Origin: Terfezia claveryi
Lineage: Eukaryota > Ascomycota > Pezizomycetes > Pezizales > Pezizaceae
Length of the DNA: 64,000 bases
Assembly: GCA_015179025.1 (NCBI GenBank)
Contig: WHUX01000039.1
Location: 329,671-393,670, forward strand
Direction: 5' to 3'
Position 1 is the stretch's first letter. Each line of letters starts with the position of its first letter. Below, piece after piece: positions 2,476-55,725 of the stretch. The notes beneath the pieces were generated by a model. That model saw nothing but the letters and a program-made list of their open reading frames with translations, had not been told where the DNA came from and did not search any database. The position numbers and the translations under genes are program-made.

Positions 2476-2650
2476 CTTGACCCTATCTGCGAAGGGTAGT
2501 GCACTGTGCAACTAGACTACCTTGACTCACAGCCCCCCTACAACTACAGCCCTAGTCTGATTGGCACAACACCCTCCACAGCTACAGCCCAGGCGGATAA
2601 ATTTGCAATAACGTCGATCCAGCTATAAATATAAACTTATCATTATATCA
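2470..2650. other. Insertion in the 5' leader of paralog 2
   Basis: After the shared module ends, copy 2 carries roughly 175 bp absent from copy 1, before homology resumes at the ACAACCTACTAC stretch (2650 versus about 345). It contains loose CTACAACTACAGCCC / CCACAGCTACAGCCC direct repeats and no open frame. It may be a small insertion or an internal expansion. Confidence 0.55.
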
Positions 2651-2706
2651 CAACCTACTACCCACGTCACTCCTTTTCTTCACCTACCAACGCACCTCAA
2701 GTCAGG

Positions 2707-3462
2707 ATGCCACCATCAGATAATTCCATTGCCAGTCCCACCCCTCGCAGTTTGGAACTCGTGACCCGGGTATTGTCAGCATTCCCCGCACTCCAACTGA
2801 TCCTCGCCTACAGCCACCGCGCGGATATCATCCACCTCGCCCGAACCTGCCGTACCCTAGCTTCCATGCTTGCGGAGTCTGTGTCCCCACTACGCAGACC
2901 GTTCCCCCGGTGTACGGTGGACCTCGCATCCTGCCAGGATTGTCAAGCGATTGTATGCGCTGTCTGCCAGAGGGAGGTCCGGGAGTTGGAGAGTCCATCT
3001 GCCATGTTGTCTCGCCTTCAGATTTATCATGCTCTAGTTATAGCGCCAGACACAGAGGAAGTCAGATCCGAGGTACTAGGCAGCATCAACACAGCGATGA
3101 GAATTCGAGGATGGCCAATGGGCGGTGTACCAGTACTGCAGGATGTGGAATGCAACATATTTTGTGCATCATGTTTCAGAATCCATAGGGCCCCCAACAG
3201 AGAAATGCAGATATTTAATGTGCCGGTACTACAGTGGAGCGACGTTCCAAATACCCACACATTGTGTACCTGTACGGACATCCACCAGGCGCAGTGTGAC
3301 GGGGATAAGCGGTTGGTGGCAATTGATGATGTCCCGGTGGGGAGTCATCTCGTTGCTATGGTGATGTTACCACCTCAACTATGGTCAACGATGGGAACGG
3401 AGACTGTGGTGACCTGCGCACTGTATGTCCAAGATGCCTTACTCCCAGTTATCAGTTGGTAG
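2707..3462 (+). CDS. F-box-like, cysteine-rich protein (paralog 2)
   Basis: This 251-residue frame is clearly homologous to 401-1138 along its whole length. It has the SPTPRSLEL start, DIIHLARTCRTLASML in the F-box-like segment, the RRPFPRCTVDLASCQDCQAI block, a second CxxC pair (CAVC), a CASCF motif, and NTHTLCTCTD with a following Cys. It has about six extra C-terminal residues compared with paralog 1. Both copies keep open frames and conserved Cys spacing despite many synonymous-looking changes, which argues that both are real genes rather than decay products. The product is presumably intracellular and possibly an SCF substrate adaptor; that is inference only. Confidence 0.72.
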   Translation: MPPSDNSIASPTPRSLELVTRVLSAFPALQLILAYSHRADIIHLARTCRTLASMLAESVSPLRRPFPRCTVDLASCQDCQAIVCAVCQREVRELESPSAMLSRLQIYHALVIAPDTEEVRSEVLGSINTAMRIRGWPMGGVPVLQDVECNIFCASCFRIHRAPNREMQIFNVPVLQWSDVPNTHTLCTCTDIHQAQCDGDKRLVAIDDVPVGSHLVAMVMLPPQLWSTMGTETVVTCALYVQDALLPVISW

Positions 3463-6150: not shown

Positions 6151-6414
6151 GTTTCAGGAGTGCTTGCAGGGAAACAGCCACTTTACCTTCGCTTGTCCAA
6201 ACTTTAGCGACCAAAGGGCCGCCCTAGGCCGCATCAAGGACTGGGAGAATCTCGACCTGTCCCGTATAGCTTCAGGGGGCTTCTCGCTGGGCATGTATTT
6301 CGTTGAGGCCCCGTGTAAGATAACAGCTCGTGTTGTTGTTAATTGGGGAGAGGGTTCGGGGGGTGGGGGTTGTGACACCGCTTTGCCTTTGCACTTATCC
6401 ATTGAAGATGTCTA

Positions 6415-6725
6415 GGAATTCTCGGAAGGTATCATTCATGAACCTTTGGGCAGTAGCGGGGGCAATTGTTATCCCAAAAGGCATAACAAGGAATTCGAAG
6501 AGTCCATAGCGGGTCTGGAAGGGGTTTTTCCATTTCTCACCTTCCTTGATACGAATTTGGTTGAAGCAGCCACGGAGGTCAAGGTGAGTAAAGTACTTGC
6601 ATCTACGGATCTGGTTGAGAGTTTCTTCAATCCAGGGTGTCGTCATTGAGGGTAGGTCGACACAAAGGCGGAGGGACCCATCTTCCTTTTTGACAAAGAG
6701 GATTGAGGAGGCTGGTGAGTTTGCC
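6415..6725 (-). pseudogene. Ty3/gypsy reverse transcriptase fragment
   Basis: The minus strand encodes [17 protein letters not shown], then IEETLNQIRRCKYFTHLDLR, QTRYGLFEFLVMPFG and RFMNDTFREFLDIF, the N-terminal half of a gypsy RT. The YxDD box is missing because the fragment stops before it. The wording (RRCKYFTHLDLRG) differs from the nested elements further right ([15 protein letters not shown]), so it is a different gypsy family. A short internal deletion removes the Y-R-G-L-N segment. Confidence 0.7.
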
Positions 6726-16506: not shown

Positions 16507-16969
16507 CTATCCCCCCTGTAGGGTAGAGCTCCAGTAACAAGGAGACTTTAGGCATGACAACTGGCAAAATTAACAAAGAAAACAACAACAACAACAAGAA
16601 TAAGGACAAGAACCCCAACTCCAAACAACAACAAAGACGCAAAGTCATGACATCAGTCAATTGGGTGAGGCTTTCTCGGGTATTATTTGTGGTACAGGCT
16701 AACGAGGTCCCATGGGTTTTCCAAGTCCTTTGCAGGTTGCCAGGTAGCCTCCTCATCCCCTAACTACTTGACCTTATACTGAACTCATCCATAGTGTTTC
16801 TTTGAGTCCAGTACCTCCTCAACTTCCCACTCCTCTTCACCTGCAATCACCACTGGAGGAGGTGGGGAGTGCTTTTGCTTGGGAAGGGGATCATCGGCGG
16901 CTGGCGCAATCTTTGAGACATGAACGACTGGATGGCGCTTGATATCCTTAAGAAACCTCATCCGGTAAG
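16507..16969 (-). pseudogene. Element E polypurine tract and chromodomain end
   Basis: CTATCCCCCCTGTAGG at 16507 is the complement of the polypurine tract. The minus strand then encodes the C-terminal chromodomain and the end of integrase (sequence aligned with 50248-50500 of A1), cut by A2 at 16970. Stops are present. Confidence 0.7.
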
Positions 16970-17588
16970 TGTCATAACCATCCTTTCCTAGCCGGGTTTA
17001 AGAGTCAGATGGGATTTCATCCAACTGTCATTATTGTTGATTGATATTATTGTTATCTCTGTTCCCGAGATAAGGGGTCTCGGGTCACAACCATCCTTTC
17101 CTAGCTGGGTTTGAGAGTCAGACGGGATTCCGTCTGACTCTCGTTATTGTTGATTGATATCATTGTTATCTCTGTTCCCGAGATAAAGGGTCTCAGGAAC
17201 CGTATTCCTTCCGGTGGCCTTGGCTAGGAAGGAAGCCTATATATATAGCTTGCTCTCTCCGCCCTCTTGTTGGATCCCCATCCAACATCTTGTATACCAA
17301 ATACAGGACCTTGTCTCTCTGCGAAGGTGTACCTCCCTTGTACACCCTCTCGTCTTGCCTTGTCCCATGAATAGCTCTGCAGCACAGCTGCCCCCCTCCG
17401 ACACACGTGGCAACTGTCTCCACGTATTTCGTGCCCCTTGCGCTCTGCCCCTCTTGCCTCTTGCCCTTGCCCCACGTCCCAGCCTTCCTCTAGTCACACA
17501 TGTAGTGTTCCTATGTATGTCTTGCCCTAGCCTCTGCCTTCTCTCTGGCGTACCCCTTGGTCGCTTTGTCCCCAGAGCCCACGTTATA
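16970..17588 (+). repeat. Element A2 5' LTR
   Basis: Begins TGTCATAACC and ends CACGTTATA. The first 113 bp (from 16971) are repeated from 17084. Each repeat carries the 26-bp palindrome with arm GAGTCAGACGG and the palindrome around the ATAAGGGGTCTCGGG end. Confidence 0.88.
17238..17288 (+). promoter_or_regulatory. A2 promoter: TATA box and predicted transcription start
   Basis: TATATATATA at 17238-17247 is followed 32 nt later by ATCCAACAT (17280-17288), which I take as the mRNA 5' end. The start lies in a GTTGGAT/ATCCAAC hairpin. The placement is supported by complementarity to the site just inside the LTR and by the same arrangement in three other elements. Confidence 0.6.
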
Positions 17589-17590
17589 CT

Positions 17591-17599
17591 ACGTTGGAT
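17591..17599 (+). other. A2 primer-binding site, self-priming type (predicted)
   Basis: ACGTTGGAT, two bases inside the 5' LTR. It is complementary to ATCCAACGT, the ancestral form of the predicted mRNA 5' end (one transition away in this copy). No TGG abuts the LTR as expected for a tRNA primer. Confidence 0.55.
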
Positions 17600-17660
17600 C
17601 ACTCTGACCAACCGGTACAATGTCTGAACCAACCCTGTTACCTACCAACAGGTTCCAAAC

Positions 17661-22766: not shown

Positions 22767-22779
22767 AAAGGGGGGATAG
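22767..22779 (+). other. A2 polypurine tract
   Basis: AAAGGGGGGATAG directly before the 3' LTR start (TGTCACAACC at 22780). It primes plus-strand DNA synthesis in this element class. Confidence 0.75.
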
Positions 22780-23398
22780 TGTCACAACCATCCTTTCCTT
22801 GCTGGGTTTGAGAGTCAGACGGGATTCCGTCCGACTCTCATTATTGTTGATTGATATCGTTGTTATCTCTGTTCCTGAGATAAGGGGTCTCATATTACAA
22901 CCATCCTTTCCTTGCTGGGTTTGAGAGTCAGACGGGATTCCGTCTGACTCTCGTTATTGTTGATTGATATCGTTGTTATATCTGTTTCCGAGATAAGGGG
23001 TCTCGAGAACCTTATTCCTTCTGGTGGCCTTGGCCAGGAAGGAAGCCTGTATATATAGCTTGCTCTCTCTACCCTCTCGTTGGATCCCCATCCAACATCT
23101 TGTATACCAAATACAAGACCTTGTCTCTCTGCGAAGGTGTACCTCCCTTGTACACCCTCTCATCTTGCCTTGTCCCATGAATAGCTCTACAGCACAGCTG
23201 CCCCCCTCCGACACACACAGCAACTGCCTCCGCATGTCTCGTGCCCCTGGCTCTCTGCCCCTCTTGCCTCTTGCCCTTGCCCCCCGTCCCAGCCTTCCCC
23301 TAGTCATATACGTAGCATTTCTACATGTGTCTTGCCCTAGCCTCTGCCTTCTTCCTAGTGTACCCCTTAGTCACATTGTCTCCTGAGCACACGTTACA
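22780..23398 (+). repeat. Element A2 3' LTR
   Basis: 619 bp, same length as the 5' LTR and with the same 113-bp U3 duplication (second unit from 22894). Ends CACGTTACA, followed by the duplicated target GTAAG. Confidence 0.88.
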
Positions 23399-26300
23399 GT
23401 AAGCATGAGTACCTACAGCCACCAACACCTCGAATGGGCCCAAGCACTTGTGGTCAAGCTTGCAGAATAGTCGTTCCATCCAGAAGTGTCTGCTGGATAG
23501 TCATACTTTGTTTCCAGGCTCGTACCTCGGTACTGGTAGTCTTGACCCATTGGCAAACTTGGCTTGTCCAGCTTGGACGTATCCCAACTCGACCTTTAGG
23601 GTAGAGTGCAACTCAGCAATCTCCGTGGTGAACTCCTTAGCTGGGGTGTTCTTCCTAGCCTTGTGCAGAGGTGCCAACAAGTCCACAAAATGAGGGTGCC
23701 AGCTATAATTAGCCAGGAATGGGGAAGTCTTCAGAGAGAAATAGTTGTTAGTAGTGAACTTACAGGTTGCCAGTAGCAACACCCAGTTGTTTTGCTGGTA
23801 ATTGATGTATGCCTTAAGGTTCTGCTCTATGATAGCATTCATTCATTTGGACTGACCATCTGTCTGGGGGTGATATACTGTAGAAAGGTGTATGTTGATT
23901 TCCAGGAGTTTGCAGAGGACCTTCTAGAAATCTGACACGAATCGAGGACAATGGTCAGAGGCAATCAATTTGAGGAGGCCATGGTATCAGAATACATTAT
24001 TGTGATAGAGGCTGGCTAATTCCAGGGTAGAGCAGGTATCCCGACAAGGTACAATATACCTCATCTTAGTTAGTCTGTCCACTACTATAAGAATGGCATT
24101 AAACCTTGAGTCTTTTGGCATCCCAGTTACGAAGTCTATGGTCAGGTATTACCAAGGTCGGTATGGAATCTCTTAGGGTTTCAGGGTCCCATACGGGGCA
24201 TGATGGGTAGGTTTTGTATGCTTGTAGATATGGCAGTTCCATATATACCGCTCCACCTCCTTCCGTTGAGCAATCCACATATATTGTTTAGATTGCAACT
24301 CTAATGTCTTAGCCACTACAGGGTGACCCATAGCCAAGGTGTCATGGTGCTCCTTAATCAGCCTTAACCATAGTCCATTGTCCGCAGGTACGTAGAGATG
24401 GTCAAGGTGGTAAAGAAGACCATCCTGGATGCTGCATTCAGCCAGGGAGATCTTTGTGTACTAACACTGTCCAGACTCTACTGTGGCAATTATATCCTTG
24501 ACCAGGGGGTCCTCCGAATGTACCTGTCGTATCTGCTGAAAGAGGTCAGCTTTGGCACTGGCATCAGTAGGAGCATTAGCCACTAGGTTGAGATATTTAG
24601 GTTTTAGTACCACCTGATTCTGGTACTACAGCCTTTCATCCCCTCCTTTAGAGAGATCTCCAGATCTCCTGGTCATTGTATCCGGCTTACCCCCAGCCTT
24701 TCTAGGTCGATACCTGATTTTAAAGTTGAACCGAGATAGGAACTCTGACCACCTAGCCTGGCGTCGGTTCAGTAGTTTGGTGGTAGTGAAATACTCAAGG
24801 TTCTTATGATCAAACAATATTTCGATAATCCCCTTAGCTGACTCCAGATATGGCCTCCACTACTCGAATACTCACACGATGGCTATTAGCTCCTTGTCAT
24901 AGATCTCGTAATTGTACTCAGCTAGGGAGTGCTTTTTTGAGAAGTATACTACTGGGTGCAGGGTTCCATTAACATACTGGGATAGGATTCCAGTGGAAAC
25001 ATAGTCGGAGGCACCTGTTTCCATGATACACTTACTGTTGGAGTCAAAGTGGGCTAGGATGGGTGCTGAACAGAAGGCTTGCTTAAGGTTCTCGAAGGCT
25101 GATTGGGCTGTAGGATTCCAATGGAATTACTGATTCTTTTCTAGGCCCTTTATTTTTGTCAATGCTGTCAAGAGTACTATGATCTTTGAATAACCTAGGA
25201 TGAACCAGCGGTGGAAATTGGTAAAGCCTAAGAAGACTTGTATATCCTTGAGGTTAGCAGGAGTTTCCCAATCCTAGATTGCTATGACTTTGGCAGGGTC
25301 CATCCTAATACCTTCTGTAGTTATGATCAAGCCCGAGTACTTTACCTCTTGGACATAGAATTTATATTTTTCGGACTTAAGGTATAGCCCAGCCTGCTCC
25401 AGCTTCTCCAATACCTTCCTGACATGGATCCTGTATTCTGCCAGGGAATCCGAGTATATGAGGATGTCGTCCAGATAAGCTGTACAGAATACATCTAAGA
25501 AGTCTTGTAAGGTGTTATTGATGAAGTGCTAGAAAGAGGCAGGGGTATTGGTTAACCCGAAGGGTATAACATTGTACTCGAAATACCCATACTTGATCCA
25601 AAAAGCTGTCTTCCACTCTTCACCTTCTGCAATCCATACCAGGTTATAGGCCCCTCTCAGATCTAGTTTGGTAAACCATTTTGCCTTAGATAGCCTTGCC
25701 AGGGTCTCCTGAATCAAAGGCAAAGGGTACCTGTTCTTCACCATTATTTCATTTAGGCCATAATAGTCTACACACAACTGGAGAGATCCATCCAATTTCT
25801 TAACGAATAGCATGGGTGCACCAGCTGGGGAGGAGCTATAGCGAATAAAGCTCTTATTGAGATTTTCTTCTAGGTACTTCTTTAAGGCTTCTAGTTCTGC
25901 TCGAGACATTCTATACAATGGTATATAGGGGGGGGTCTTGCCTTCCAGCAAGGGGATGGTATAGTCATATGGCTGGTGAGGGGCAAGCTTTTCTATAGCT
26001 TTCTCAGAAAATAAGTCTATGAACTCATAATATTCATTTAAAACCAAAGATTTCTATTCTCCTTTGGATTGCAGCTTGTTGATTTCCAGGTTGACTTCAT
26101 AGATTGACAGGGTATGGGCCTTTAGTTTGTGCCTTTTGGTAAGTTAAGCAAAGGCCCCAGCTCCAATGAAGCTGACATTCAGGAGTTTTGGGGGTGTGAG
26201 GGGGATATAGGGAGCAGGTGAAACAGGGGAAACAGGGGAAACAGGGGGATTGGTAGCATCAATGTGTGCGGGCTGGTATACCACCTAAGTTGGATGGATT

Positions 26301-28122: not shown

Positions 28123-28131
28123 ATCCAACGT
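28123..28131 (-). other. Element E primer-binding site (self-priming type, predicted)
   Basis: Minus-strand ACGTTGGAT, two bases inside the 5' LTR (28134). The predicted mRNA start in the LTR is at 28412-28404, RIP-eroded to ATCTAATAT, downstream of a TATATATA run near 28446-28454. Confidence 0.5.
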
Positions 28132-28133
28132 AG

Positions 28134-28679
28134 TATAACGTGGGCTTTGGGGAATAAGACGACCAAGGGATATGCCAGGGTAAGGGCAGGGCTAGGGTAA
28201 CATACACATGTAGGAACATTACGTGTATGACTAGGGGAAGGCTGAAATGGGAGACAAGGATAAGAGGCCGAGACACGTAGAAGCGGTTGCCGTGTATGTC
28301 GAAAGGAGGCAGCTATGCTGCAAAGTTGTTTACGAAGCCAGGGTGGTATACAGAGAAAGTATACCAGTACAGGGGAAGCAAGGTCCTGTATTGGGTTTAC
28401 AAGATATTAGATAGGGATCCAATGATAGTACGAGGGCAAAGGACTTTATATATATGAGCCGCCAGGATAATGGGAGAAATAAACTTCTCGAGATCCCTAT
28501 CACGGAAGCCCAGCAGGATAATGATAATCCATCACGTATGATTATAGGTGATGACAAAGACAGCAATGACAATAACCCATTACCTGTAATTGCAGGTGAT
28601 ACCAAAGGTAATAATGACTATAACTTATCACCTACGATCGCAGGTGGTAATAAAGACAACTGAATACATGGTTGTGACA
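28134..28679 (-). repeat. Element E 5' LTR
   Basis: 546 bp, TATAACGTGGG...GGTTGTGACA on the plus strand. It contains three eroded B-type palindromes near 28529-28650. Confidence 0.85.
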
Positions 28680-30760: not shown

Positions 30761-30769
30761 ATCCAACAT
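30761..30769 (-). other. Element D primer-binding site (self-priming type, predicted)
   Basis: Minus-strand ATGTTGGAT, two bases inside the LTR at 30772. The predicted mRNA start is ATCCAATGT at 31046-31038, so each side is one transition from the ancestral pair. Confidence 0.5.
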
Positions 30770-30771
30770 AG

Positions 30772-31302
30772 TGTAATGACTGCTCTGGGGACAAGGTAAC
30801 TAAGGGGTATACTAGAGCAATGGCCAGGCTAGAATAATATATATGTAGGAATGCCATATGTATGGCTAGGGGAAAAGGCTTAGAATAGGGGCTAGGGTGA
30901 GGGTGAGAGAGGCACATGGGAGTAGTAGAAAGCAGCAGGGTTGCAGAGCTGTTCGATAGATTATGGCAGGATGAGGGGGTATACAAGGGAGATACAGCTT
31001 CATAGAGAGAAGCAAGGTCCTGTATTAGGTATATAAGACATTGGATGGTTATCTAATGAGAGGGTGGAGAAATAAAGATATATATATATGATTCCAAGCC
31101 AAGGCCATGGAAGGAATAAGCTTCCTGAGATTCCTATCTTGGAAGCTAAGATTACAATTACCTATCAACGACACTCAAATAAGCCTGTTCGAGTGTCAGA
31201 ACAGCATGATACCCGAACAAGCCTATTCAAGTATCAAAACAGTATGACACCCGAACCAGCCAGTTTGACCGTCAAATCAAGATGAAGAGCACAGTTATGA
31301 TA
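30772..31302 (-). repeat. Element D 5' LTR
   Basis: 531 bp, TGTAATGACTG...AGTTATGATA. It contains the triple 28-bp palindrome array near 31168-31275. It is followed directly by half of a B-type LTR. Confidence 0.85.
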
Positions 31303-31465: not shown

Positions 31466-32078
31466 ATCTTACCTAAACTCAAACTAAGATAGCTAGGTCT
31501 ATTTCCTATTATTTCTAGTAATTTTAAATACAATAATTATAGTCTGGACCTATTTAGGGAACCTGATCTTCACTTTATATATAATACTTTTCATATTAGC
31601 AAACTCAAACCTTATTATAGAAATGATTTTACCCAGTTCTCTTATAGATAAACTTAAGAACTGGAACCAATTCAAGATAATTATTATAAAGTTAAAAAAG
31701 CATTAGAATTCAGAACAGCTTCTAGAACTAGATTAAGATAATATAAGGTTAGATAGCTAGAATACTCTCCTAAATATAATTCCTAAGTAAATACTAAGGA
31801 TATCACTACCAAAATTATTCAAGACTTCTGGATAACTAGAAGGATAGACAATATATTCACAAGATAATGAATAAGTAGAAGAAGATAAGGGCTATAAACT
31901 AGAGATAAGATCTGAGCTCTTATCTAATAGAAATAAGATAGAATTATAAGTCAAGGAAACATTAAGGATAATCATATTAATGCTAATATAATAATAATAT
32001 ATTAAATCTTAAGATGTATGGAAATTAATTTAATAGAACAAAAGAAGTAAAGATAGGAAATCCTTCTATGTAGGCAAG
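31466..32078 (+). pseudogene. Family X pol tail (copy 1): integrase C-terminus and chromodomain
   Basis: Plus strand, aligning with the minus-strand X element near 57740-57100: the stretch corresponding to SPKLKPKWLGPFPIISSN at 31475-31540, YISKLKPYY near 31590, and the chromodomain KVLEFRTA region near 31690-31760. Every line has TAG or TAA stops; the mutation load is much heavier than in the A/D/E elements. Confidence 0.65.
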
Positions 32079-32713
32079 TGTAATAGTAAATATTATTTCA
32101 TTACTTATATAATTGTTTATATAGTTTTATATTTCCTATATTACTACTATATTATATAACTAATCCTTTTGGTTGAAGGACTAGCTTTCTACTACTTTCT
32201 ACTACTTTATAAGCATCCACAGTATATGAAGTTTACTATGGGAAATTCTATAGAACTTGCTATATTAGCATATCCTTATTATGGCTGCATAACCTTTATT
32301 TTAGGCTGCATAAATATTACTATAGCTATATAACCTCTTTTATATAGTATACTACCTTTTGGTATACTATCCTTTATTGTATTTGTTTCTATAGTTATCA
32401 GATCTTAGAGAAGTATAAATAGGCTAATAGATTTCTTCTAAAATCTATAAGAAGAATTTGAGAAGTACACAAGTATCTATTAGTAAGCCTATATTAAAAT
32501 CAAATCAAGATTCTATAGCTTAAATAGTACAAATTTATATAAATTAGATTATATTAGTTAATTACTATTCTCTAATAGAATATCCTACATAATAATCTCC
32601 CTACCCTTCTAGGGTACTACCTTAGCAAAACAAAAATATACAAATATCTATGTCTATAGATATAGACTGTATAAATAATACTAAATAAATTCTGTCTGGT
32701 ATTATTTATTATA
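32079..32713 (+). repeat. Family X LTR (copy 1)
   Basis: Starts TGTAATAGTAAA and ends TTTATTATA. About 635 bp, aligning end to end with the X LTR at 56414-57093 (minus), including GAGAAGTATAAATAGGC (TATA box). It is followed at once by X integrase sequence, so copy 1 sits inside copy 2. Confidence 0.75.
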
Positions 32714-33192
32714 ATATTCCTATTAAAGAAGATTATATAGTTTGTATTTTATGACTTTAGATAATTATTGATAGATAATTAGAATTTATTATTTCTGTCT
32801 TAGATAATTTTATAGCAAAACAATATATTACTACTTTTGATACTTATATAGTCTCAACTATAGGATATCATTTTTGTATTGTTTTTAATTGAGATACTTT
32901 TTTTATATTAATACACTTTTAAAATTGGGCTAAAAATAAAGGAATTAAGTTAGAACTGTCTACTATATATTATCAATATATAGATAGACAATTGGAAATT
33001 ATGATCAAAGAAATTCTGTAAATAGTAAAAGCTTGTAAAATTAAAGAATTTAATTGGTTACAAAAACTGCCAGAGATATAGTTGAAACTTAATTATAGGT
33101 ATGATACTGCTAGCCAGAATAGCTCCTATTCTATACTATTTAGATTTAATGCATATCTTAGTGTATTAATACTTCCATATTCTATTAATATA
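32714..33192 (+). pseudogene. Family X integrase core (copy 2, left part)
   Basis: Corresponds to the X integrase stretch from NIPIEEDHVVCISGLWTIVD to LGVLILPYPIN (see 57416-61990). A short open part at 33082-33192 reads MKLNYRYDTASQNSSYSILF. Cut by the foldback element at 33193. Confidence 0.7.
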
Positions 33193-35220
33193 CCATACCA
33201 AAAAAGGGGATGTTATCATACGAGTAGTACTGTCATATTCCTATATTATTGTAGATACTTTAATATTAGTCGGTAACTCTTATTTATTTCTATATACATA
33301 ATAAAACTTTATTTTAATGGTATCAGGTAGCACATAGTATGCATTGTCTGAAATACTATATTTTGAGTAAGTATTATAAAGACTAAAATATTCGCTACTA
33401 TGTTGTCTAGAATACTATTGCTTTAGTAATTATTATAAAGACTAAAAATGGTCCCTATTATATTATCAAGAATACTATTGTAATATAGTAGTACTAACAT
33501 GCAGCTTATAACAATACTAGAACAGGCTATACACCTGCTAACAGCTCTGGAATCTTGGCACTGGAGCAAATTTCGTAGCAGATTTCGAAGTATATTTTGG
33601 AGCAGATTGTAAAGCAGATTTTGAAGTAGATTTCAAAGTAGATTCTAGAGCAGATTTCATAGTAGATTTTAGAGTAGACTTCAGATCGAGAATATATACA
33701 GCAGAAATATTCATTTTATTTACTAATTATAATAGTATACATAGCATACTAATACTTACTATAATACTCTCTCTAATACTTGCTCTAATACTTGCTATAA
33801 CACATACTCTAATACTAACTCTAATGTTCACTACAATACTCGCTCTAATACTTGCTCTGATAATCACTCTAATATTCGCTCTAATACTCACTCTAATACT
33901 TGCTCTAATATGCTTTAGAAACATACAAGATATTGGATAAAGAGTAAAAGGAAAAGGTGCGAGAGGAGAAGATATATATATAGGAAAATTATAGTTACTA
34001 AGCCCAATTGCTAAATCTGATAATATAGACTTTCTGGAAATAATGAGATAATAGATAATAAGAGAGGTAGCATGACAGTGCTCAGTCCCGCTTAGTCTAC
34101 TATCGTATATGTGTGCCATACTACTGAATGCCTAACCTAGTAATAGTCATATTAGGAAATTATAGTCGTAGTACTATAATATATATAGAGTTTATACTTT
34201 GTGATATATATTGTAGGAAGTTATACCTTCATAGCCCATTTATGAAGTATCTAAGAAACTTATACATTTGAGGGTTAAATACATAGAGGCTACAAAAGTA
34301 TAAATTCCATGTATATCTAGAGATCATGAAAGCATGAAATCTATGCATATATATATGTAAGCCTCAAATATATAAATTTTATATATATCTAGAGATTGTC
34401 AAAGTATGAATTCTATGCATATATATAAATAAGCTTCAAAAGTATAAATTCTATGCATAAGTATATATATATAAGTCTCAAATATATAAGTTTCTTATCT
34501 ATATATATATAGGCATGGAAAGCATAACTTCCTATAATATATATCATAAAGCTGAACTCCACATATATTGTAGTACTACAACTACGATTTCCCAATATAA
34601 CTATTACTAGGTTAGATATTGAGTAGTACAGTACCTATGTATGATAGTAGGCTAAGCAGGGCTAAGTACTGTCATGCCACCCCTCTTATTATCTATTATC
34701 TTATAGTCTTCAGAAAGTCTATATTGTCAGCCTTGGCAATCAAGCTTGGCTACTATTGTTTTCTAGTATCTATACTTCGCTTACTCAAGCTTTTTTTTTT
34801 AGCTCTTTATCTAATATTTTATTAAATTTCTGAGACATATTATAGTAAGTATTAGAGTAAGTATTAAAGTAAGTATTAGAGCGAGTATTAAAGTAATTAT
34901 TAGAGCAAGTATTAGAGCGAAGTGTTGTATGAGTATTAAGGTGAGTGTTGTAGTAAGTATTAGAGTAAGTATTAGAGTAATATTATATTTGACCAACTTT
35001 ATGTATTAACATTATACAACAATTTTATTTAACTAACTTCGAGTCTCACTAAACTACAGAGTTATTATGATCTAGAATTGCTATAGTATTCTCGGAAGTA
35101 TGTGGTATGACCTAACTTTATTAGTAAGGCCGATAAAGTTCAGCCACATGAACAGTACTTTTGGTATTTATAGAGATATAGAATTACCACCTGAATAATA
35201 ATATCCCCTTTTTGGTACAG
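33193..35220. mobile_element. 2.0-kb foldback element with TA target duplication
   Basis: Left end CCATACCAAAAAAGGGGATG; right end, on the other strand, CTGTACCAAAAAGGGGATAT. The X integrase reading stops at 33192 and resumes at 35223, with a duplicated TA (33191-33192, 35221-35222). The interior is a large imperfect inverted repeat: 33720-34220 pairs with 34500-34990 (12-bp CTCTAATACTCG-type array, a GGCATGACAGTG core, and a region near TCGTAGTACTATAATATATA). The centre (about 34300-34500) has ATATATA-rich 37-bp units. No transposase is encoded, so it is non-autonomous. The TA duplication points to a Tc1/mariner-type source, but the long subterminal repeats resemble Foldback elements. Confidence 0.65.
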
Positions 35221-35222
35221 TA

Positions 35223-35993
35223 TATATATCAGCAAATGAACATTATAAGGTAATATTTAAGAACCTATATGATGCTAAGAAAACTCAAGCATCTTAAGTC
35301 AATAAACAACTATCTAATACAACTAAATTTTCAGTTAGACAATAAGTCATGTTTTCTTTGAAAAATATCAATTTATTAAATATTTTATCTAAACTTAAAC
35401 TAAGATAGCTAGACCCATTTTCTATTGTTTCTAGCAATTAGAAAAACAATAATTATAGCCTAAACCTATTCAATTAACTTGACCTCCACCTCATATATAA
35501 TACTTCTCATATAAGTAAGATTAAACTCTATTATGAAAATGATCTTACCTAGTTCCCTTATGGACAAACTTAAGAACCAGGACTAATTTAAGAAGATTAT
35601 TATAAAGTCGAAAAAGTATTAAAATTTTAAACAGCTCCTCTAACTAGAAAAAAACAATATAAAGTTAGATAGCTAAAATACTTTCTTAAATATAATTTCT
35701 AGGTAAATATTAAAGATATTACTACTGAAATTTACTAAGACTTCTGGACAACCAAAAGTATAGAAAATATATTTAAGAGATTATGAATAACTAGAAAAGA
35801 TAAGAACTATAAACTAGAGATGAGACCTGAAGTTTCATTCAAGAAGAATAAAATAGAATTATGAGTTAAGGAAATACTAAAAATATTTATATTAATACTA
35901 ATATATTAATAATATATTAAGTTTAAAGATATATAAAAACAAATTTAGTAGAACAAAAAAAGTAAAGATTGAAAATTATTCTATGTAGTTAAG
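35223..35993 (+). pseudogene. Family X pol tail (copy 2, right part)
   Basis: Continues the integrase of 32714-33192 (ATATCAGCAAATGAACATTA corresponds to IPANEHH), then the SPKLKPKWLGPFP region at 35390-35440 and the chromodomain near 35610-35700. Heavily RIP-mutated. Confidence 0.68.
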
Positions 35994-36621
35994 TATAATA
36001 GAAAATATATTTCAGTACTTATATAATTACTTATATGCTTTTGTATTTTCTATATTACTACTATATTATATAACTAAGCTTTTTAATTAAAAGATTAGCT
36101 TTTTACTACTTCCTACTACTTTATAAGTATCTATAGCTTATAGAATTTCCTATAGGAAATTCCATGAAACTTGCTATATAAGCACACCCTTATTCTAGCT
36201 ACATAACCTTTATTTTAGGTAGTGTAACTATTACTATAGCCACATGACCTTTTTTGTATAATGTACTACCTTGTGATGTACTACTCTTTATTATATTTTA
36301 TTTTCTTAGTTATTAGATTTTAGAGAAGTATAAATAGGCCACTGGATTTTCTCTTGAATCTAGTGACAGAGCAGAAGTAGGTATTAACTAGCATGCCTAT
36401 ATACTAATTAGATTAAGATCGTATAGCTTAGATAGTACAAATTTATATAAGATAGATTATACTAGTTAATTACTATTCTCTAGCAGAATATCTCATATAG
36501 TAATCTCTCTACTCTTTTGAGTTCCTGCTTCCATAGAAGTGAAATACATAAATGTTCATACCTATGGATATAGATTGTATGAATAGTACTGAATAAATAC
36601 TATCTAGTACTATTCATTACA
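35994..36621 (+). repeat. Family X LTR (copy 2)
   Basis: TATAATAGAAAA...TATTCATTACA, about 628 bp, aligned with the LTR at 56414-57093. It carries GAAGTATAAATAGGCC as TATA box. Confidence 0.72.
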
Positions 36622-38798
36622 ATTAGCTTACAAACTCAACAAGTATTAGGTTACTATATTACCTATTGTAAGGAAGTGGCTTACTCATACCCTATAACTA
36701 ACCCTCTCTCTTATAAATGTATTTCTTATATATTTTCTTACTCCATAAGTATCTCAAAACATATAACATTCTGTGTACTGTCTACCTTACTAATATTTCA
36801 TATGCTTTCATATATTATCATATACTTTCATATATATAAGTCAAAGTTAAGGCTTAACCTATTTTGTACTAGATAGTATTTGGAAGTACTATCTAGAGGT
36901 TTCTATTATATTGATATTAAATTATGTAAAGGTCAGATGATAGTGCACTGCTCCAGTACTATACCAGTACTAGCCTAATAGGAATATATATAGTCTCCTG
37001 AATTTTCTTTCAGTTGGAGGGAGAGTTAGAACACAGAAGATAGTTAGAGTACAATTAATATAGAAGTTTCACTGGTTAATCTTTAAAGTGCCTTTAGCAC
37101 TCTTATACTACTTTATCTACTACAGTAATTTTATACTACTAGTAATAACTTTAATAGTAAGGCTGAACAATATACTATTAGTAATCTACTTTGTAATATA
37201 TATTACTAGCCTGAGATTATCTGATTAGATTAGATCTTTATCTAATTTAATCTAATTCTTCAGTCCCTTATAATAACACTTTACATTTTTTTAACCTAAG
37301 AAGTTAATTCTTACCTAACAGAAAAACCAGATCAACCTTACCTAATCAACAAGGTTTCTACTAGAAAGAGTTAAAACTAAAGCTAGTATAAGCCTACAAT
37401 ATAAAGCACAGTAGTACCAAAGTTTAACAGTCAGTAGTAAGACTATCCTCTAAATAGCAACAGTAAGACTATTTAACAAATAGTAACCAATAAAGCCTAC
37501 AAGTAGTAGCAAACAATAGTAAGGGTAAGAACAACTGTATTCAACTAGCAAATATAAAGAAATAGGATAAAACTACCTAAACTGGTAGCTCTGAGATCTA
37601 GAAAGTACCTCAAAAGTTCAATAAGGGTGAGGATTATAGGAACTAGTCCTATTAATATCCAAACTCCAGAGAGTGTCCTAGCCCCACTCTCTACCTAGCC
37701 TAAAGAAAAATTAGGAACTCTCCTAATAAGTAGAACAAGGAAAAATTTTGTACTTCTCCCTCTAAAAAGAATATAAATACCTAGTAGTCCAACTTCTATC
37801 CTTCTACTCAACTTTCTTCCCAGCATTAATAGGAAATTCTGCCTCCACAATAATTTTATCAATAAAAGTTACCCTTTTTCCCTTCAAAATTTTCTTACCC
37901 TTACTATAGTCAATCCTGGTATCAGAAGCTACAAAAAGAGGATAAGAAGGAAGTTGATAAGAAGTAGACTCTTCCTTATCAGGATCTACCTTAAAGAAAG
38001 TAGGAATAAAAGAAACAGAGTCTAAGGAATCAGTGGTATAATATCTGATAGACATAGAAACTCTTAAACAAAAAACAGCTAGTAGAGTTATAGAAGGAAG
38101 AGCTAGGAGAAATAGGATAAAGGCAATAACAAGTGAGGAGCTAGAAGCACTCAAGACCAAGTTAGTTAATACTCCTAAAAAAAGAGTTCCAGTAGGAAAA
38201 GATATTCTAGATAGGGATATAGAAATAAAGGAAATATCTCTTAGACCAAATGCAATCATGCTTGAAGTAAAAATCATAACACCTTCTGCAATAAAAGCCT
38301 TTTGGGACAAAAATGAATTCTCATGGTACTAAAGGTTATTACATGTATTTATATACCTAATAATAAACAATATACAATATCAGCAAGAAAAAAGTGGCAT
38401 CGGAATGCCAGGTGGTGTCTCCCAAAAACAAGGTTATCTCTAATGTCTTTTGTGTCTTTTATGTCTCCTAGGTGTCTCCTGAATGTCTCCCATGTATCTC
38501 CCAGTGTCTATCAGTATCTCTTGGAGACACTGGGAGACATTCTGCCAATCGTAGAGATACACCTTATCTCTAGTGGCAATACTATCTCTACAGATACTGG
38601 AGACAAACTATTTTCTTTCCTGATATATCAAAAAGAAAAAAGAAGTTGTTGGCTAAAGTAGTAGAGAAATTCATGATCTTCTAACAAAAATATTAATTTG
38701 ATAAGTCATACAAAATGAATCTTCAACTATCAACTACTTTAAAAGTAGTATAGTCTTACCCAATATATAACCCATACAAAAGAATTCTATGACTAATA
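36622..38798. other. AT-rich unassigned stretch
   Basis: No reliable gene. A TGTAAGGAAGTGG at 36667 could start an LTR of family Y (the gag downstream), but its partner is not in the window. The minus frame 37804-38310 (168 residues) runs through relic DNA and is hydrophobic by composition; I do not treat it as a gene. From 38441 to 38540 TGTCTCC recurs at 12-16-bp spacing and ends in a 13-bp stem hairpin (TCTCCCAGTGTCT at 38497-38509 with its complement at 38525-38537). Confidence 0.45.
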
Positions 38799-40384
38799 TT
38801 GAACTGGCCTTTCTTAATACAATACATACTTATAGGTAACCTATATAAGTTGGAGACACTAGAGATAGTGCCTCCTCTAACAGAACCTAGAGAGTCTCAT
38901 AAAGATATAAGTAGGAAACTATTTAGAGTAGTAGGAGGCAAAGGTAAGGAAAAAAGTATTCAGTTTGAAGAAGAAGATGATAGAGATTATGAAATAGATA
39001 TAGAAGAAATATTTAAAAAAGATATGCCACCACTACCTAAGAAAAGAAAAAACTAGAACATACTAAAAAGGGCAAGAGTCTAAAAAAGAGGTCTGGTAAG
39101 AAGTCCTTAGGAGGAATAGCTAGAGGTAGTGGAGATGACTCAGGATCTGGATTTGAGAGTGATCAATCAGATGATAACTCTAATAATGATAGAAAGAAAA
39201 GGTCTATTAGGGAACCTAGCTCTCACTACTTGAAATAGTCTAAAAAAACTGGTCAAGCTATACTTTTATAACAGATTAGTAAGTCTCTTATAAAAAAGGC
39301 AAACAAACTTGTAAAAATTTCTAATCCTCTATAAATTGATGGTATATCAGAAAAATGGAGAGATCAAACTATCTTTGATAACTATGTACAACAACTGCAG
39401 AAGTGGGTAGAATATCAAGATATAGATATAGCAAGTTAGGAAAGCTTAGATAGAGCAAGCTTTATATTTAAAGGAAGTGCTCAAACTTAGTATAACTAGT
39501 ATTGTACTGAGAAAACTAATGTTAAGAACAGGAATTGCTATAAATTTATATTAAAACTGAGAGGAAAACTTATCTTTACAGTTGCACCTGAAGTCATATG
39601 GAAAAAATATCTAGTACACTATCAGAGGCTAGAAGTTACTGTCATATAGTATACACAGAACCTCTAGGAATATAAAATCAAATATAAAGATCTAAATAGA
39701 CAAAATATAATAAGTGATTATATACTCAAAATGAAACTAGTGGATAGACTAGTACCCTTGCTTAGGGCTAAGATTAAAGAGCTAATTTTATATAAGTCAA
39801 TCTTTGAGGAAATACTGAACAAAATAGCTGTTCAAGAAGATGTCCTCAAACAGGAAACTAAATCCTTACAATAGTATCAGAAGAAATTTGACAAGCAATA
39901 GGGCTCTGGCAAGTCTATAGAATAGACTAAGTCTGAATTTAAATTGCCACATAAAGTAGCCAAAAGTGCAGCTAAAGTTGCAGGAAGGAAAGGATTGTCA
40001 AAAGAACTCTATAACAATTTCCCTAATGCTAGAAAAAATAAGACCAAGTATATACCTTATAGTGAATAAGAGAAGAAGAGAGAAGAAGCTGCAAGAATAG
40101 AGACTTGCTATCACTATAGCCAGAAAGAATATACTTCAAAGGACTGCCTAAATAGGGAGGTATCTTTAGCATACTAATCTATGGGGCCTAGGCCAGAGTT
40201 TAAGACATTTCTAGCTAGATAATAGTATAGGCCTAGGCCATCATGGCCTTAGAACAAAGTAAAAACTACTTACTAAGAAATTAATATTAAGTAGCAGAAG
40301 TTAGCTGTACTATAGGTTATAAGAAACTCCAATAACTCAAAGAAGTTCTTAGTGCCAGAAAGTCATAGAACTTCTAATGCAGCT
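38799..40384 (+). pseudogene. Family Y gag (RIP-mutated)
   Basis: An acidic N-terminal segment is open (SIQFEEEDDRDYEIDIEEIF, to 39056). After a frameshift, GDDSGSGFESDQSDDNSNN leads to a capsid-like block: EKWRDQTIFDNYVQQLQKWV, ESLDRASFIFKGSAQT, FTVAPEVIWKKYLVHYQRLE, ISDYILKMKLVDRLVPLLRA. A knuckle CYHYSQKEYTSKDC follows near 40110-40150, with the second Cys and the His both replaced by Tyr, the changes expected from G-to-A and C-to-T. TAG stops occupy Trp and Gln positions. It is a Ty3/gypsy-type Gag different from A/D/E and X. The sequence is broken off at about 40385 by the minisatellite block. Confidence 0.6.
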
Positions 40385-41319: not shown

Positions 41320-41702
41320 ATCCCGTAGGCATTCATGCATTCACAGGCATATATATATAAGTATCCGAAAGCATGAGTTTCTCGCATATATATATAAGTC
41401 TCCAAAAGTATGAGTTTCTCGCATATATATATATAAGCCCACGAATGTATAGATTTCTCATAAATATATATATATATATGTCCCAAAAGCATGAGTTTCT
41501 CGCATATATATATAAGTCTCCAAAAGTATGAGTTTCTCGCATATATATATATAAGCCCACGAATGTATAGATTTCTCATAAATATATATATATATATATC
41601 CCAAAAGCACGAGTTTCTCACATATATATATAAGCCTGCGAATGTATAGATTTCTCACATATATATATATAAGTCTCCAAAAGCACAAGTTTCTTGCATA
41701 TA
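41320..41702 (+). repeat. AT-rich 37-42-bp satellite, array 1
   Basis: About nine monomers of CATATATATATAAG + (T/C)CTCCAAAAGTATG + AGTTTCTCG type. Two monomer variants (CCAAAAGTATGAG and CACGAATGTATAG) alternate, giving a higher-order unit of about 118 bp. Frames through it are spurious. Confidence 0.75.
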
Positions 41703-41734
41703 TATGTTCTGGTCCGTTCCGGGATTCCAGGCCA

Positions 41735-41815
41735 TACCGGTATAGATCGGGCCATTCCAGGATTGCCCGGGCCATACCGGTATGGCCCCCCATACCGGTA
41801 TGGACTGGGCCGTTG
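41735..41815. repeat. CCATACCGGTATGG palindrome cluster
   Basis: The 14-bp palindrome occurs twice and a near copy (CCATACCGGTATAG) once. It recurs at about 43403-43438 once exactly and once as CCATACTGGTATGG. Confidence 0.75.
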
Positions 41816-42982: not shown

Positions 42983-43235
42983 TAATGGTGTTTTGCATAC
43001 TTCCGCTGGTGGTAAGAGTGTAATATTGTAGAGACCAGTAAGAGTGGAATTAAGCAAAGCAATAGTTAAAACACTTGTGTTTGTTGCAAAGAAGTTATGG
43101 TATCGTGATCTTTAAAGGCTACTATTGCGCATGCTACAACCTCTTGTTCTTTGACCTAATATTTCTCTACATAATAACCTTCATTTCGGGTATACCTCTA
43201 CTGAGTATTTTCTTTGATAGGTCACTTATGTTATC

Positions 43236-45690: not shown

Positions 45691-45700
45691 ACCAGCCTAG

Positions 45701-49481: not shown

Positions 49482-49979
49482 TGTAACGAGGGCTCAAGGG
49501 ACAAGGCGACCAAGGGGTACGCCGGGGCAAGGGCAAGACTAGGGTAACACACACGTAGAAACGCTACGTGAGTGACTAGAGGAGAGGCTAGGACGGGGGC
49601 AAGGGCGAGAGCGAGAGAGGCAGAGGGCAAGGGGCACGAGACATGCGGAGGCAGTTGCTGCGTGTGTCAGGGGAGGCAGATGCTGCAGAGTTATTTGTAC
49701 GAGACAAGGATGTGCACAAGGGAGGTGCACAAGCGCTGGGAGAAGCAAGGTCCTGTATTGGTATACAAGACGTTGGATAGGGATCCAACGAGAGGGCGGA
49801 GAGAGCAAGCTATATATACAGGATTCCTTCCTGGCTTGCCAAGGCCACCGGAAGGAATAAGGTTCCCGAGACCCCTTATCTCGGGAACAGAGATAACAAC
49901 GATATCAATCAACAATAACAAGAGTCGGACGGAATCCCGTCTGACTCTCAAACCCGGCTAGGAAAGGACGGTTGTGATA
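49482..49979 (-). repeat. Element A1 3' LTR
   Basis: 498 bp, TGTAACGAGGG...GTTGTGATA. It carries one 26-bp palindrome (49922-49947, arm GAGTCGGACGG) and a second one around CCGAGACCCCTTATCTCGGG. Confidence 0.92.
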
Positions 49980-50928: not shown

Positions 50929-51735
50929 CTACTCCATGATTGCATTCATTCTCTCGGACTGACCATCTGTTTGGGGGTGATATGCCGTGGAGAGGTGTAC
51001 GTTGATTCCCAGAAGCTTACAGAATACCTTCCAGAAGTCCGAGACAAATTGGGGGCCGCAGTCCGAGACGACAGACTTGGGGAGACCATGGTAGTGGAAT
51101 ACATGGTTGAGGTAGAGGCCGGCGAGGTCCCGGGCAGAACAGATATCATGACAAGGTATAACATGCCTCATTTTGGTCAATCGGTCTACTACCATAAGAA
51201 TAGCGTTAAACCCCGAATCCTCCAGCAACCCAGTCACAAAGTCTATAGTTAGGTGTTGCCAAGGCTGGTCTGGGATCTCTAGGGGCTTCAGGGTCCCATA
51301 AGGAGCGTGGCGGACAGGCTTAGCACGCTTGCAAACGTGGCAGTTCCATATGTACCGCTCCACGTCCTTCCGTTGGTCAATACATGTGTATTCCCTGGCC
51401 AGAAGCTCTAACGTTTTGGCCACTCCAGGGTGACCTGCAGCCAGGCTGTCATGGTGTTCCTTGATCAATCTAAGGCGCAGCTCTCCTTCCGGCACATACA
51501 GCCATTCGAGGTGGTAGAGGAGGCCTTCCTGGATGGTACACTCGGCTAGGGAGATCTTAGGGTGGCGGTGCTGGCCAGAATCCACTGCGGTGATAATTTC
51601 CTTGGCCAGGGGGTCGTCCATATATGCCTGTCTCACTAGTTGTCGGAGGTCAGCCTCAGCCTCAGCTACCGCATCAGCCTCAGCCTCAGCAAGGACATTG
51701 GCCGCCAGATCAAGGTTTTCGGGCTTCAATACCAC
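50929..51735 (-). pseudogene. Element A1 integrase core
   Basis: 268 codons. The zinc-binding N-terminus (EHHDSLAAGHPGVAKTLELL, NCHVCKRAK) is followed by the DDE core: IDFVTGLLEDSGFNAILMVV (first Asp), SDCGPQFVSDFWKVFCKLL (second Asp; Arg of SDRGPQF is Cys) and YHPQTDGQSERMNAIME (Glu). The reading stops at TAG 50929-50931 where the related copies have CAG (Gln). Upstream lies an Ala/Glu/Asp-rich linker (AEAEADAVAEAEADLRQL). Confidence 0.9.
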
Positions 51736-51749
51736 CTGATTTTGGTATT

Positions 51750-53978
<2,229 letters not shown>

Positions 53979-54013
53979 ATGGCCTAGGGCAGGTCCCTTG
54001 CTAGTGTCAGTAA

Positions 54014-55191
54014 CTAGGCAAGGGACAGGGCTTTTCCCGACTCGTCAAGCTCCTCAATCTTGGGCACTGGGGTATCGGAGATAGCGTGGATGGCGAGAGA
54101 GCGATTCTTTCGAAGGGGGCAAGCTACAATGAAGTGGTCGGCCTTCCCATAGGCTATGCATAGCCCATTATTCCGGCGGCGTTCCCTCTCTTCTTGGGTC
54201 AGGCGGGGTCTGCCTAATGATAAATCCATGGGGGTGGGCCCTCCTGCCACCAACGATGGGTGTGCTGGTTGATTGGCGGGGGCAGGGGCCTGAGCTGCTT
54301 TAGTGGCATGGTATTGCTGGGGTGGTGGGAGACGGGGTGCTGGCCTGAACGGTAGGCGGTTGTAGAGCCGGGACATCCGCTGTTCCACCCGGTAGGCCTG
54401 GTCGATCAACTCCTCGAGGGTATCAACCGTGGGGAGGGTAACCATGGCTTGTTGGAGCTCATCACTGAGCCCCTCCTGGAATTGCTCGAACTTAGCCTGG
54501 TCGTTCCACCTTACCTCTGCGGCCAGCCTCGAGAACTCTGCGATGTAAGTAGACAGCTCTGAGTTGCGCTGTCTCAGTGCCCGGAGTGCTCGACTGGCCG
54601 TCCCCACTGTATCAGGATCTCCGAACGCCTGATCCAAGATAACAAACAAGGCTGAGACGTTGTCGAGCTTGATCCCTGTCTCGAGCACATATGGCTGGAT
54701 TTGATCCATGGCCTTGCCCTCCAGCAGGGCAAACACATAGGCCAGGGGTGTTGTTCTGATGGAAACCTAGCCGAATCCCCACTCAACTTCAAGTTCACCG
54801 CATTTTTCCAGGCTTGTAGACGAGCCCTATCCCTATTGAACTTAGGGGGGGTGGGGATACTTTCCGTTTTGGCGGTGGTGGTTGGCGTAGAGATAGCCAG
54901 ATCCGCCAGGGCGCGGCCGAGGTTTTGGACCATGGTCCGTTCGGTGGCTAGGGCAAGGTTCACATGGTCGAGATCCGTCTGGAGGACCGTGATCTCTTCA
55001 TCGGCGGATCTCAGCTTTTGTTCGGCCACGGCCAGGCTGTTGCCGAGTTTGGCCCCGATGGCATCCATGGCCTCGAAGATGTCGATGATTTCTTGATGAT
55101 AGGCATTCAATTCGTTCGGGCCTGAGGGTATAGGGGAGCTTCTCCAGGTCTGGAACCTGACGGCGGGTGGTGGGAGAGCTACTCCTGACAT
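54014..55191 (-). pseudogene. Element A1 gag
   Basis: ATG at 55191 starts MSGVALPPPAVRFQTWRSSP. Next come a coiled-coil segment (EQKLRSADEEITVLQTDLDH) and the capsid block PTPPKFNRDRARLQAWKNAV. A frameshift near 54745 interrupts the frame, and the second part resumes at FALLEGKAMDQIQPYVLETG through YRVEQRMSRLYNRLPFRPAP to the nucleocapsid CIAYGKADHFIVAC, where the second Cys of the CCHC knuckle is Tyr (TGT to TAT). The stop at 54014-54016 lies after KALSLA. Pol is in the -1 frame relative to gag at this point. Confidence 0.88.
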
Positions 55192-55216: not shown

Positions 55217-55225
55217 ATCCAATGT
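55217..55225 (-). other. A1 primer-binding site (self-priming type, predicted)
   Basis: Minus-strand ACATTGGAT, two bases inside the 5' LTR. It pairs with ATCCAACGT at the predicted mRNA start (55524-55516) with one mismatch caused by a G-to-A change. Confidence 0.55.
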
Positions 55226-55227: not shown

Positions 55228-55725
55228 TATAACGAGGGCTCAGGGGACAAGGCGACCAAGGGGTACGCCGGGGTAAGGGCAAGACTAGGGTAACACACAC
55301 ATAGGAACGCTATGTGAGTGACTAGAGGAGAGGCTAGGACGGGGGCAAGGGCGAGGGCGAGAGAGGCAGAGGGCAAGGGGCACGAGACACACAGAGGCAG
55401 TTGCCGCGTGTGTTAGAGGAGGCAGATGCTGCAGAGTTATTTGTACGAGACAAGGATGTGCACAAGGGAGGTGCACAAGCGCTGGGAGAAGCAAGGTCCT
55501 GTATTGGTATACAAGACGTTGGATGGGGATCCAACAAGAGGGCGGAGAGAGCAAGCTATATATACAGGATTCCTTCCTGGCTGGCCAAGGCCACCGGAAG
55601 GAATAAGGTTCCTGAGACCCCTTATCTCGGGAACAGAGATAACAACGATATCAATCAACAATAACGAGAGTCGGACGGAATCCCGTCTGACTCTCAAACC
55701 CGGCTAGGAAAGGATGGTTGTGACA
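55228..55725 (-). repeat. Element A1 5' LTR
   Basis: 498 bp; the palindrome is at 55668-55693. It differs from the 3' LTR by about 19 transitions and one transversion by hand alignment. Confidence 0.92.
55516..55564 (-). promoter_or_regulatory. A1 promoter: TATA box and predicted start
   Basis: TATATATA at 55557-55564 on either strand, 33 nt before the predicted start at 55524 (ATCCAACGT reading down). The start lies in the GTTGGAT/ATCCAAC hairpin at 55518-55535. Confidence 0.6.

Follow-up and report, generated by a model that had tools for sequence, protein, structure and literature searches.

Elements in the window

We analyzed a 64,000-nucleotide stretch of Terfezia claveryi contig WHUX01000039.1 (the window), in which four genuine LTR retrotransposons, A1, A2, D, and E, are recognizable by their LTR pairs and, where these are kept, by a polypurine tract and target-site duplication (TSD). 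Their LTRs have the form TGTCACAAC...CGTTACA, with changes. The LTR ends were set by comparing 5' and 3' LTRs and, for A2 and A1, also by perfect 5-bp TSDs (GTAAG and ACTGG, respectively); no perfect TSD was found at the LTR ends of E and D. The polypurine tract AAAGGGGGGATAG precedes the 3' LTR in A1 and A2. The features used below, including the putative self-primer and the predicted primer-binding site (PBS) of each element, are as follows.

16970..17588, + strand: A2 5' LTR (TGTCATAAC...GTTATA), with the TSD GTAAG (16965-16969) directly upstream
17238..17247, + strand: A2 TATA run, whose first T precedes the LTR 9-mer by 42 nt
17269..17275, + strand: A2 palindrome, upstream arm GTTGGAT (U3), with CCCC directly after it (17276-17279)
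17280..17288, + strand: A2 putative self-primer and RNA start ATCCAACAT, from the 9-mer match, with the U3/R linkage break nearby
17291..17294, + strand: A2 TGTA, which could pair with the LTR end (TACA; TATA in A2), from RNAalifold (0.31-0.33) and duplex energy
17550..17562, + strand: A2 U5 segment GTACCCCTTGGTC, which could pair with the leader 3' of the PBS
17591..17599, + strand: A2 predicted PBS ACGTTGGAT, two bases (CT) past the LTR
17606..17618, + strand: A2 leader segment GACCAACCGGTAC, candidate partner of the U5 segment GTACCCCTTGGTC
22767..22779, + strand: A2 polypurine tract AAAGGGGGGATAG
22780..23398, + strand: A2 3' LTR, followed by the TSD GTAAG (23399-23403)
55228..55725, - strand: A1 5' LTR; the TSD ACTGG flanks the element on both sides
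55516..55524, - strand: A1 putative self-primer ATCCAACGT
55217..55225, - strand: A1 predicted PBS ACATTGGAT, 1 mismatch with its own primer
50929..55191, - strand: A1 coding region, fragmented, with gag, RT, RNase H, and integrase pieces
54014-54736, plus 54574-55191 without a Pfam match, - strand: A1 gag
51750-53978, - strand: A1 RT and RNase H
50929-51735, - strand: A1 integrase
49482..49979, - strand: A1 3' LTR
28134..28679, - strand: E 5' LTR
28404..28412, - strand: E LTR copy of the 9-mer ATCTAATAT, decayed
28123..28131, - strand: E predicted PBS ACGTTGGAT, 3 mismatches with its own LTR copy
30772..31302, - strand: D 5' LTR
31038..31046, - strand: D LTR copy of the 9-mer ATCCAATGT
30761..30769, - strand: D predicted PBS ATGTTGGAT, 2 mismatches with its own LTR copy

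A sequence-only reading of the window had reported a nine-base block two bases inside the 5' LTR of each element and its complement within the LTR, starting at 17280, 55524, 28412, and 31046. Both observations are exact at all four places (A2 on the + strand, the others on the - strand), and the two-base spacer is CT in every case. The reading had also described the mismatches between block and complement as single C/T or G/A changes. All are indeed transitions, and single in A1 and A2 (8/9 paired in each), but D has two (7/9) and E three (6/9), so that the pattern stands while two of the four copies are poorer than claimed and none pairs at 9/9. The reported distance of 32-33 nt from a TATA box was reproduced, with ~32 nt separating the end of TATATATA from the LTR 9-mer. 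The A1 9-mer, ATCCAACGT, is the commonest primer form in the family to which these elements belong (family A).

Several other features of the window were recorded. The first ~110 bases of the A2 5' LTR appear by eye to be tandemly duplicated (16970-17200). Positions 32001-40000 are AT-rich (GC 0.26-0.32 beside 0.38-0.55) and perhaps constitute a decayed repeat block. Tandem arrays occur at 45258-45717 (23-bp unit), 42213-42697 (24 bp), and within 41346-43660 (~118 bp), and 42632-43002 and 44667-45037 form an inverted pair (92%). Two ~800-bp copies (82%), at 327-1122 and 2633-3425, contain ORFs of 245 and 251 aa; the ORF in the 327-1122 copy gave a B-box match only, below the Pfam cut-off. With Rfam at gathering thresholds, no matches were obtained in the window.

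Pairing of the 9-mers across family A

To survey the family, the genome (72.6 Mb, 794 contigs) was searched with a pattern consisting of both 9-mers at fixed spacing, with two C/T-G/A positions left free. This pattern occurs at 238 places, 113 on the + strand and 125 on the - strand, and the same pattern read backwards, as a control, occurs at none genome-wide. We read 94 family A copies: 21 found by similarity (A2 included), three in the window, and 70 found by the pattern. These remained from 125 raw motif pairs once a CTT/TTT tail was required, the 31 dropped rows being explained as opposite-strand readings of the same places (tails AGTGTA and CGTGTA).

The two 9-mers pair at 9/9 in 54 of the 94 copies, a proportion biased upward because 70 of these copies came from the pattern search, in which most of both 9-mers is fixed. 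Among 30 loci similar to A2, a PBS was found in 21, of which 11 pair at 9/9, nine have one mismatch, and one has two. When 62 non-redundant copies were compared cell by cell, 97.5% of cells paired in register versus 22-34% after sliding by 1-4 columns. The PBS 9-mer is constant, and the bases that follow it vary by subfamily. As a separate observation, the post-PBS cassettes CACTCTG, CCTTTGG, CTTATCG, CTTTCAG, and CGTCTCG occur with different LTRs (examples are window 17600-17606 and loci L043, L045, L048, and L027).

The sequence-only reading had proposed that more copies be sought and the two 9-mers examined for covariation. Copies proved plentiful, at the 238 places above, but the covariation within family A is not specific. 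Primer/PBS mismatches number 47 versus 59 in shuffles (P 0.003); single positions gave P 0.16, 0.03, and 0.03, and a crossed position pair P 0.07. Correlation with the PBS is just as strong for the palindrome arm upstream of the primer (P 0.0035), and we therefore dropped covariation within family A as specific evidence, since shared age and C-to-T decay can explain it. The third primer base is altered in eight copies; the stretch fetched included a recognizable PBS in two of them (L173 and L178), and neither was compensated.

Compensated changes in a second family

A second chromovirus family in the genome, family B, was reached by fetching four places with high-scoring reverse transcriptases. 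Its pol is 49% identical to that of family A over ~800 residues. The family B LTR has the form TGTTACGAAC...CATAACA and is followed by TT and then, in most copies, by TTGTTGCGT. Within the LTR, the context CCCC-ACGCAACAA-CTTGTCTACC is the counterpart of CCCC-ATCCAACGT-CTTGTATACC in family A, and in one locus (L039) the 9-mer lies 49 nt after the start of TATAAAAG. The family B pair, ACGCAACAA/TTGTTGCGT, thus occupies the same place as the family A pair. Between the commonest pairs of the two families, four of nine positions differ, and all four differences are compensated. This compensation is the strongest evidence that the putative primer and PBS 9-mers would pair with each other, and their occurrence in two families makes a real mechanism far likelier than coincidence.

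We read 35 family B sites, 32 of them fetched and three (L039-L041) by eye. A PBS lies two bases past the LTR in 25 of the 35, pairing at 9/9 in 15 and with one mismatch in 10; the 32 fetched sites comprise 22 with a PBS, one in which it is displaced (L163), and nine without. Genome-wide, primer-site combinations of like with like dominate (A-A 238, B-B 38) over mixed ones (A-B 1, B-A 0). The sole match to an A primer with a B PBS (C223:678734-679038) may be chance or a recombinant. The upstream palindrome arm was not found in the family B sequences read. A search for a third family through the shared context CCCCA-N8-CTTGTNTACC gave 71 matches, all of which looked A-like or B-like. The window itself contains, at 6404-6628, a fragment that is 77-79% identical to the family B reverse transcriptase region.

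Linkage and the putative RNA start

We examined linkage between variable sites, numbered from the LTR 9-mer, across the family A copies. The distance from the first T of the TATA box to this 9-mer is 40 nt in 76 of the 94 copies and 38-46 nt in 17, and in one copy no TATA box was found. Sites in U3 are strongly linked to one another up to -14 (mean r2 0.31-0.43 for pairs straddling points from -150 to -30), as are R-U5 sites from +17 on, where mean r2 reaches up to 0.22; linkage within R-U5 is looser than within U3, with lows of 0.04-0.06 at +150 to +180 and +260 to +310. Between these two blocks lie 30 bases (-13 to +16) with little variation other than transitions, which are found mainly at -12, -11, -1, +6, and +7 and show linkage to neither U3 nor R-U5. 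For site pairs straddling points from -10 to +10, mean r2 is 0.011-0.015 in the 94 copies, against an unlinked expectation (1/n) of 0.011.

Linkage of U3 to the interior was assessed in 54 copies whose internal sequence extended for 850 nt or more, using permutations that treat copies as exchangeable. U3 and R (+17 to +120) gave 0.0175 versus 0.0188 in permutations (P 0.49), whereas U3 and the internal region gave 0.0585 versus 0.0187 (P 0.002). With the set thinned to 42 copies, the contrast remained, at 0.0187 (P 0.76) for U3 with R and 0.0699 (P 0.001) for U3 with the interior. By segment, linkage of U3 to the interior exceeded permutations in all five segments and that of U3 to R-U5 did not (P 0.19); for U3 and the leader, the value was 0.0345 and the maximum in 80 permutations 0.0343.

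A U3 that is unlinked from R-U5 yet linked to the interior is the mark expected of strand transfer at an R that starts at the break. R-U5 would derive from the primed RNA, and U3 together with the interior from the RNA that receives the strong-stop DNA, so that the border between them would be the RNA start. On the linkage data, the U3/R border, and with it the putative RNA start, falls within -13 to +16 relative to the LTR 9-mer. We infer the RNA 5' end from this break together with the TATA spacing.

RNA folding and the upstream palindrome

The sequence-only reading had suggested folding the first 300 nt of the RNA. The consensus fold holds the expected duplex, but folds of single sequences mostly do not. 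In an unconstrained RNAalifold prediction for 62 non-redundant leaders, the nine primer:PBS pairs close the leader with probability 0.64-0.99; past a 2x2 loop, UGUA:UACA at the LTR end reaches just 0.31-0.33. The consensus energy is -22.7 (-22.68); permuting the PBS columns 60 times gave a mean of -19.7 (sd 1.2), and at least one of these permutations folded better than the original (minimum -23.16). When sequences were folded singly, the mean probability of the primer:PBS duplex exceeded 0.5 in just six of the 94 copies. For family B, duplex prediction with typed oligos gave 9 bp, a 2x2 loop, and 3 bp, at the same places as in family A. A third candidate duplex joins U5 (GTACC..TTGGTC) to the leader (GACCAA..GGTAC), with 96% of cells paired across the 94 copies and no covariation among them.

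In family A, four bases separate the arm CGTTGGAT from the 9-mer downstream of it. The arm changes little from copy to copy, unlike the adjacent U3 bases; the genome pattern made no selection for it. A palindrome around the putative start had been noted from the window, and both of its 8-nt arms match in full in 51 of the 94 copies. If the upstream arm is included in the RNA, the predicted arm:primer hairpin beats the PBS duplex, which suggests that the arm probably lies upstream of the RNA start. Since the arm is located in U3, it would be present in the RNA only beside the 3' LTR copy. Its absence from the family B sequences read suggests that it is not essential. One speculative role, to which we give a small chance, is that of a lock: CGTTGGAT might hide the 3' copy of the primer in a hairpin, leaving only the true 5' end to pair with the PBS. 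A further suggestion, offered just as tentatively, is that the core might double as an exchange point for free swapping of U3 promoters, with family B representing the unlocked form.

Proposed mechanism and alternatives

Taken together, the data make it very probable that both families are Ty3/gypsy chromoviruses that work like Tf1 and prime themselves. Within the 5' LTR, the mRNA would start with the A of ATCCAACGT or very close to it, and its first nine nucleotides would fold back onto the PBS ACGTTGGAT, which follows the LTR after two bases. RNase H would then cut after nucleotide 9, where the duplex meets the 2x2 internal loop, and the resulting nine-nucleotide RNA would prime minus-strand DNA. 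The strong-stop DNA would transfer to the 3' R, often that of another RNA copy, and such transfer could allow U3 promoter modules to be exchanged freely against R-U5. The RNA 5' end, its cutting by RNase H, its use as a primer, and strand transfer from one RNA copy to another are all inferred; support in the sequences comes from the nine-nucleotide complementarity and its constant location, the compensated pair in family B, the lack of a match to any sampled tRNA, the linkage break, and the chromodomain. The compensation, the tRNA result, and the linkage break likewise favor the Tf1-type self-priming that the sequence-only reading had proposed.

Priming by a host tRNA is one rival explanation. 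Elements primed in this way carry a PBS starting with TGG at or near the LTR, with a match of ~8-18 nt to the tRNA 3' end. The T. claveryi genome gave 63 matches to RF00005, of which 40 were fetched; ARAGORN assigned them to 11 isotypes plus two unclear cases, and tRNA ends were taken as ARAGORN drew them. No match of the tRNA-primed kind was found among these 40 genes: 3'-anchored matches reach a maximum of 5 nt in 92 of the 94 family A copies and 2 nt in the other two, and no more than 2 nt in the single family B region compared, which has no TGG. A tRNA might instead place its CCA end on the TGG that the nine-base block contains, seven bases in from the LTR, and family A does have TGGATC at LTR+7. 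This proposal could also draw on complements located anywhere inside the 40 tRNAs, which extend to 9 nt for 12 of the 94 copies, 8 nt for 64, 7 nt for 17, and 6 nt for one, but shuffled regions perform similarly (6-9 nt, with 9 nt in eight, and once 12 nt). The bases after TGGAT vary (CACTCTG, CCTTTGG, CTTATCG, CTTTCAG, CGTCTCG), so no single tRNA could pair with all copies beyond TGGATC, and the complement within the LTR would be left unexplained. We consider tRNA priming, which the sequence-only reading had discounted because no TGG abuts the LTR, highly improbable and rejected it on the basis of 3'-end matches of at most 5 nt over 40 tRNA genes, which span 11 isotypes (those other than Asp, Cys, Glu, His, Leu, Phe, Pro, Trp, and Tyr).

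The remaining alternatives concern what the conserved tract does. One possibility is a role for the LTR palindrome as a promoter element or protein-binding site, with the block after the LTR being simply its third copy and having no part in priming; conservation of the whole of -13 to +16, including the upstream arm and CCCC, neither of which self-priming needs, fits such a role. Family B is hard to reconcile with it, as a complementary pair exists there without the arm and both members differ jointly from those of A, and in family A the PBS 9-mer stays constant between variable flanks exactly where a PBS is required. We judge this explanation to have very little chance of being correct. A less remote variant, though still an unlikely one, accepts self-priming and moves the RNA start ~12 nt farther upstream, giving a 5' hairpin, CGUUGGAUCCCCAUCCAACG, and a primer that is internal or ~21 nt long. 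A start near -12 would fall 28 nt from the first T of the TATA run, which is a commoner spacing, and linkage cannot separate this start from one at the 9-mer, the stretch from -13 to +16 being devoid of informative sites. What counts against it is that the hairpin is predicted to out-compete the PBS duplex once the arm is included, that complementarity stops exactly at the ninth base, and that family B has no arm. Slightly less probable again is that the break between U3 and R-U5 reflects DNA recombination or gene conversion within the conserved 30-bp tract, and not reverse transcription. Such a tract, flanked by diverged modules, offers a natural place for crossing over; a single DNA crossover, however, should yield linkage that declines with distance, and U3 is linked to the interior several hundred bases on and not to the intervening R-U5.

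In the literature as far as its available text extends, self-priming has been shown in Tf1 and elsewhere mostly deduced from a short complementary match; here, two families in one genome supply compensated changes that favor it. The linkage test, in which U3 is unlinked from R-U5 and linked to the interior, points to the RNA start and to transfer between copies from the genome alone, and could be applied to other multi-copy LTR families. The resulting mosaic is indicative of promoter swapping among otherwise unlike elements.

Relation to known elements

Pfam domains found in the elements include RVT_1, RNase H, H2C2, and rve, and PF00385 (Chromo) and PF24626 (Tf2-1-like SH3) were found in one copy of each family (L194 for A and L195 for B). 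The combination of reverse transcriptase, RNase H, integrase, Tf2-1-like SH3, and chromodomain assigns both families to the chromoviruses. One family A copy (L193) also contains acidic Ala-Glu repeats between RNase H and integrase, at residues ~530-576 of a 900-aa frame; the family B copy used for comparison lacks them. A search with the pol of one family A copy gave 7980 relatives; among the 120 matches listed, the best are unnamed metagenome proteins at 80% identity, and the named ones come mostly from Morchella, with others from Podosphaera and Aspergillus and one frog entry. One listed relative is named 'Tf2-9 polyprotein', which we treat as a lead only for membership in the Tf1/sushi group. 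A literature search, whose coverage left out most subscription journals, found no paper on families A and B.

The literature consulted cites Levin 1995, Lin and Levin 1997, Butler 2001, and Kelly and Levin 2005. Self-priming is described as common in the Tf1/sushi group in the available text of PMC10085805 and PMC6317226. As far as the accessible parts of PMC10085805 and PMC7175516 go, families A and B resemble Tf1 and Tf2 of Schizosaccharomyces pombe in having a chromodomain and a PBS complementary to the mRNA 5' end, putative here, and in the mosaic of U3 against the rest of the element. The predicted primer:PBS duplex and the possible duplexes between the LTR and PBS-adjacent bases also recall the three-duplex 'pretzel' in the available portion of PMC10085805. 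The differences are that nine nucleotides are complementary here and eleven there, that family A has a palindrome arm upstream of the putative primer, and that the mRNA start and RNase H cut are putative here.

Among other elements, Tj1 of Schizosaccharomyces japonicus differs from A and B in sequence and has been shown to transpose, whereas A and B are seen here as genomic sequence. In the Tcn1 clade, neither tRNA- nor self-priming was found for Selaginella SM-Tcn1, according to the part of PMC2864245 available, whereas in families A and B the complement is plain. Recombinant LTRs have been reported for Arabidopsis Onsen and Drosophila rover in the accessible text of PMC5668417 and PMC12992720. 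A close likeness is offered by Tosmo1-3 of Schizosaccharomyces osmophilus, in which, within the available text of PMC10085805, a diverged U3 segment ends 9 bp from the U3-R junction and is read as possible recombination at minus-strand transfer. That case comprises three elements examined by sliding window; the present one draws on 94 copies, 54 of them with linkage followed from U3 into the interior.
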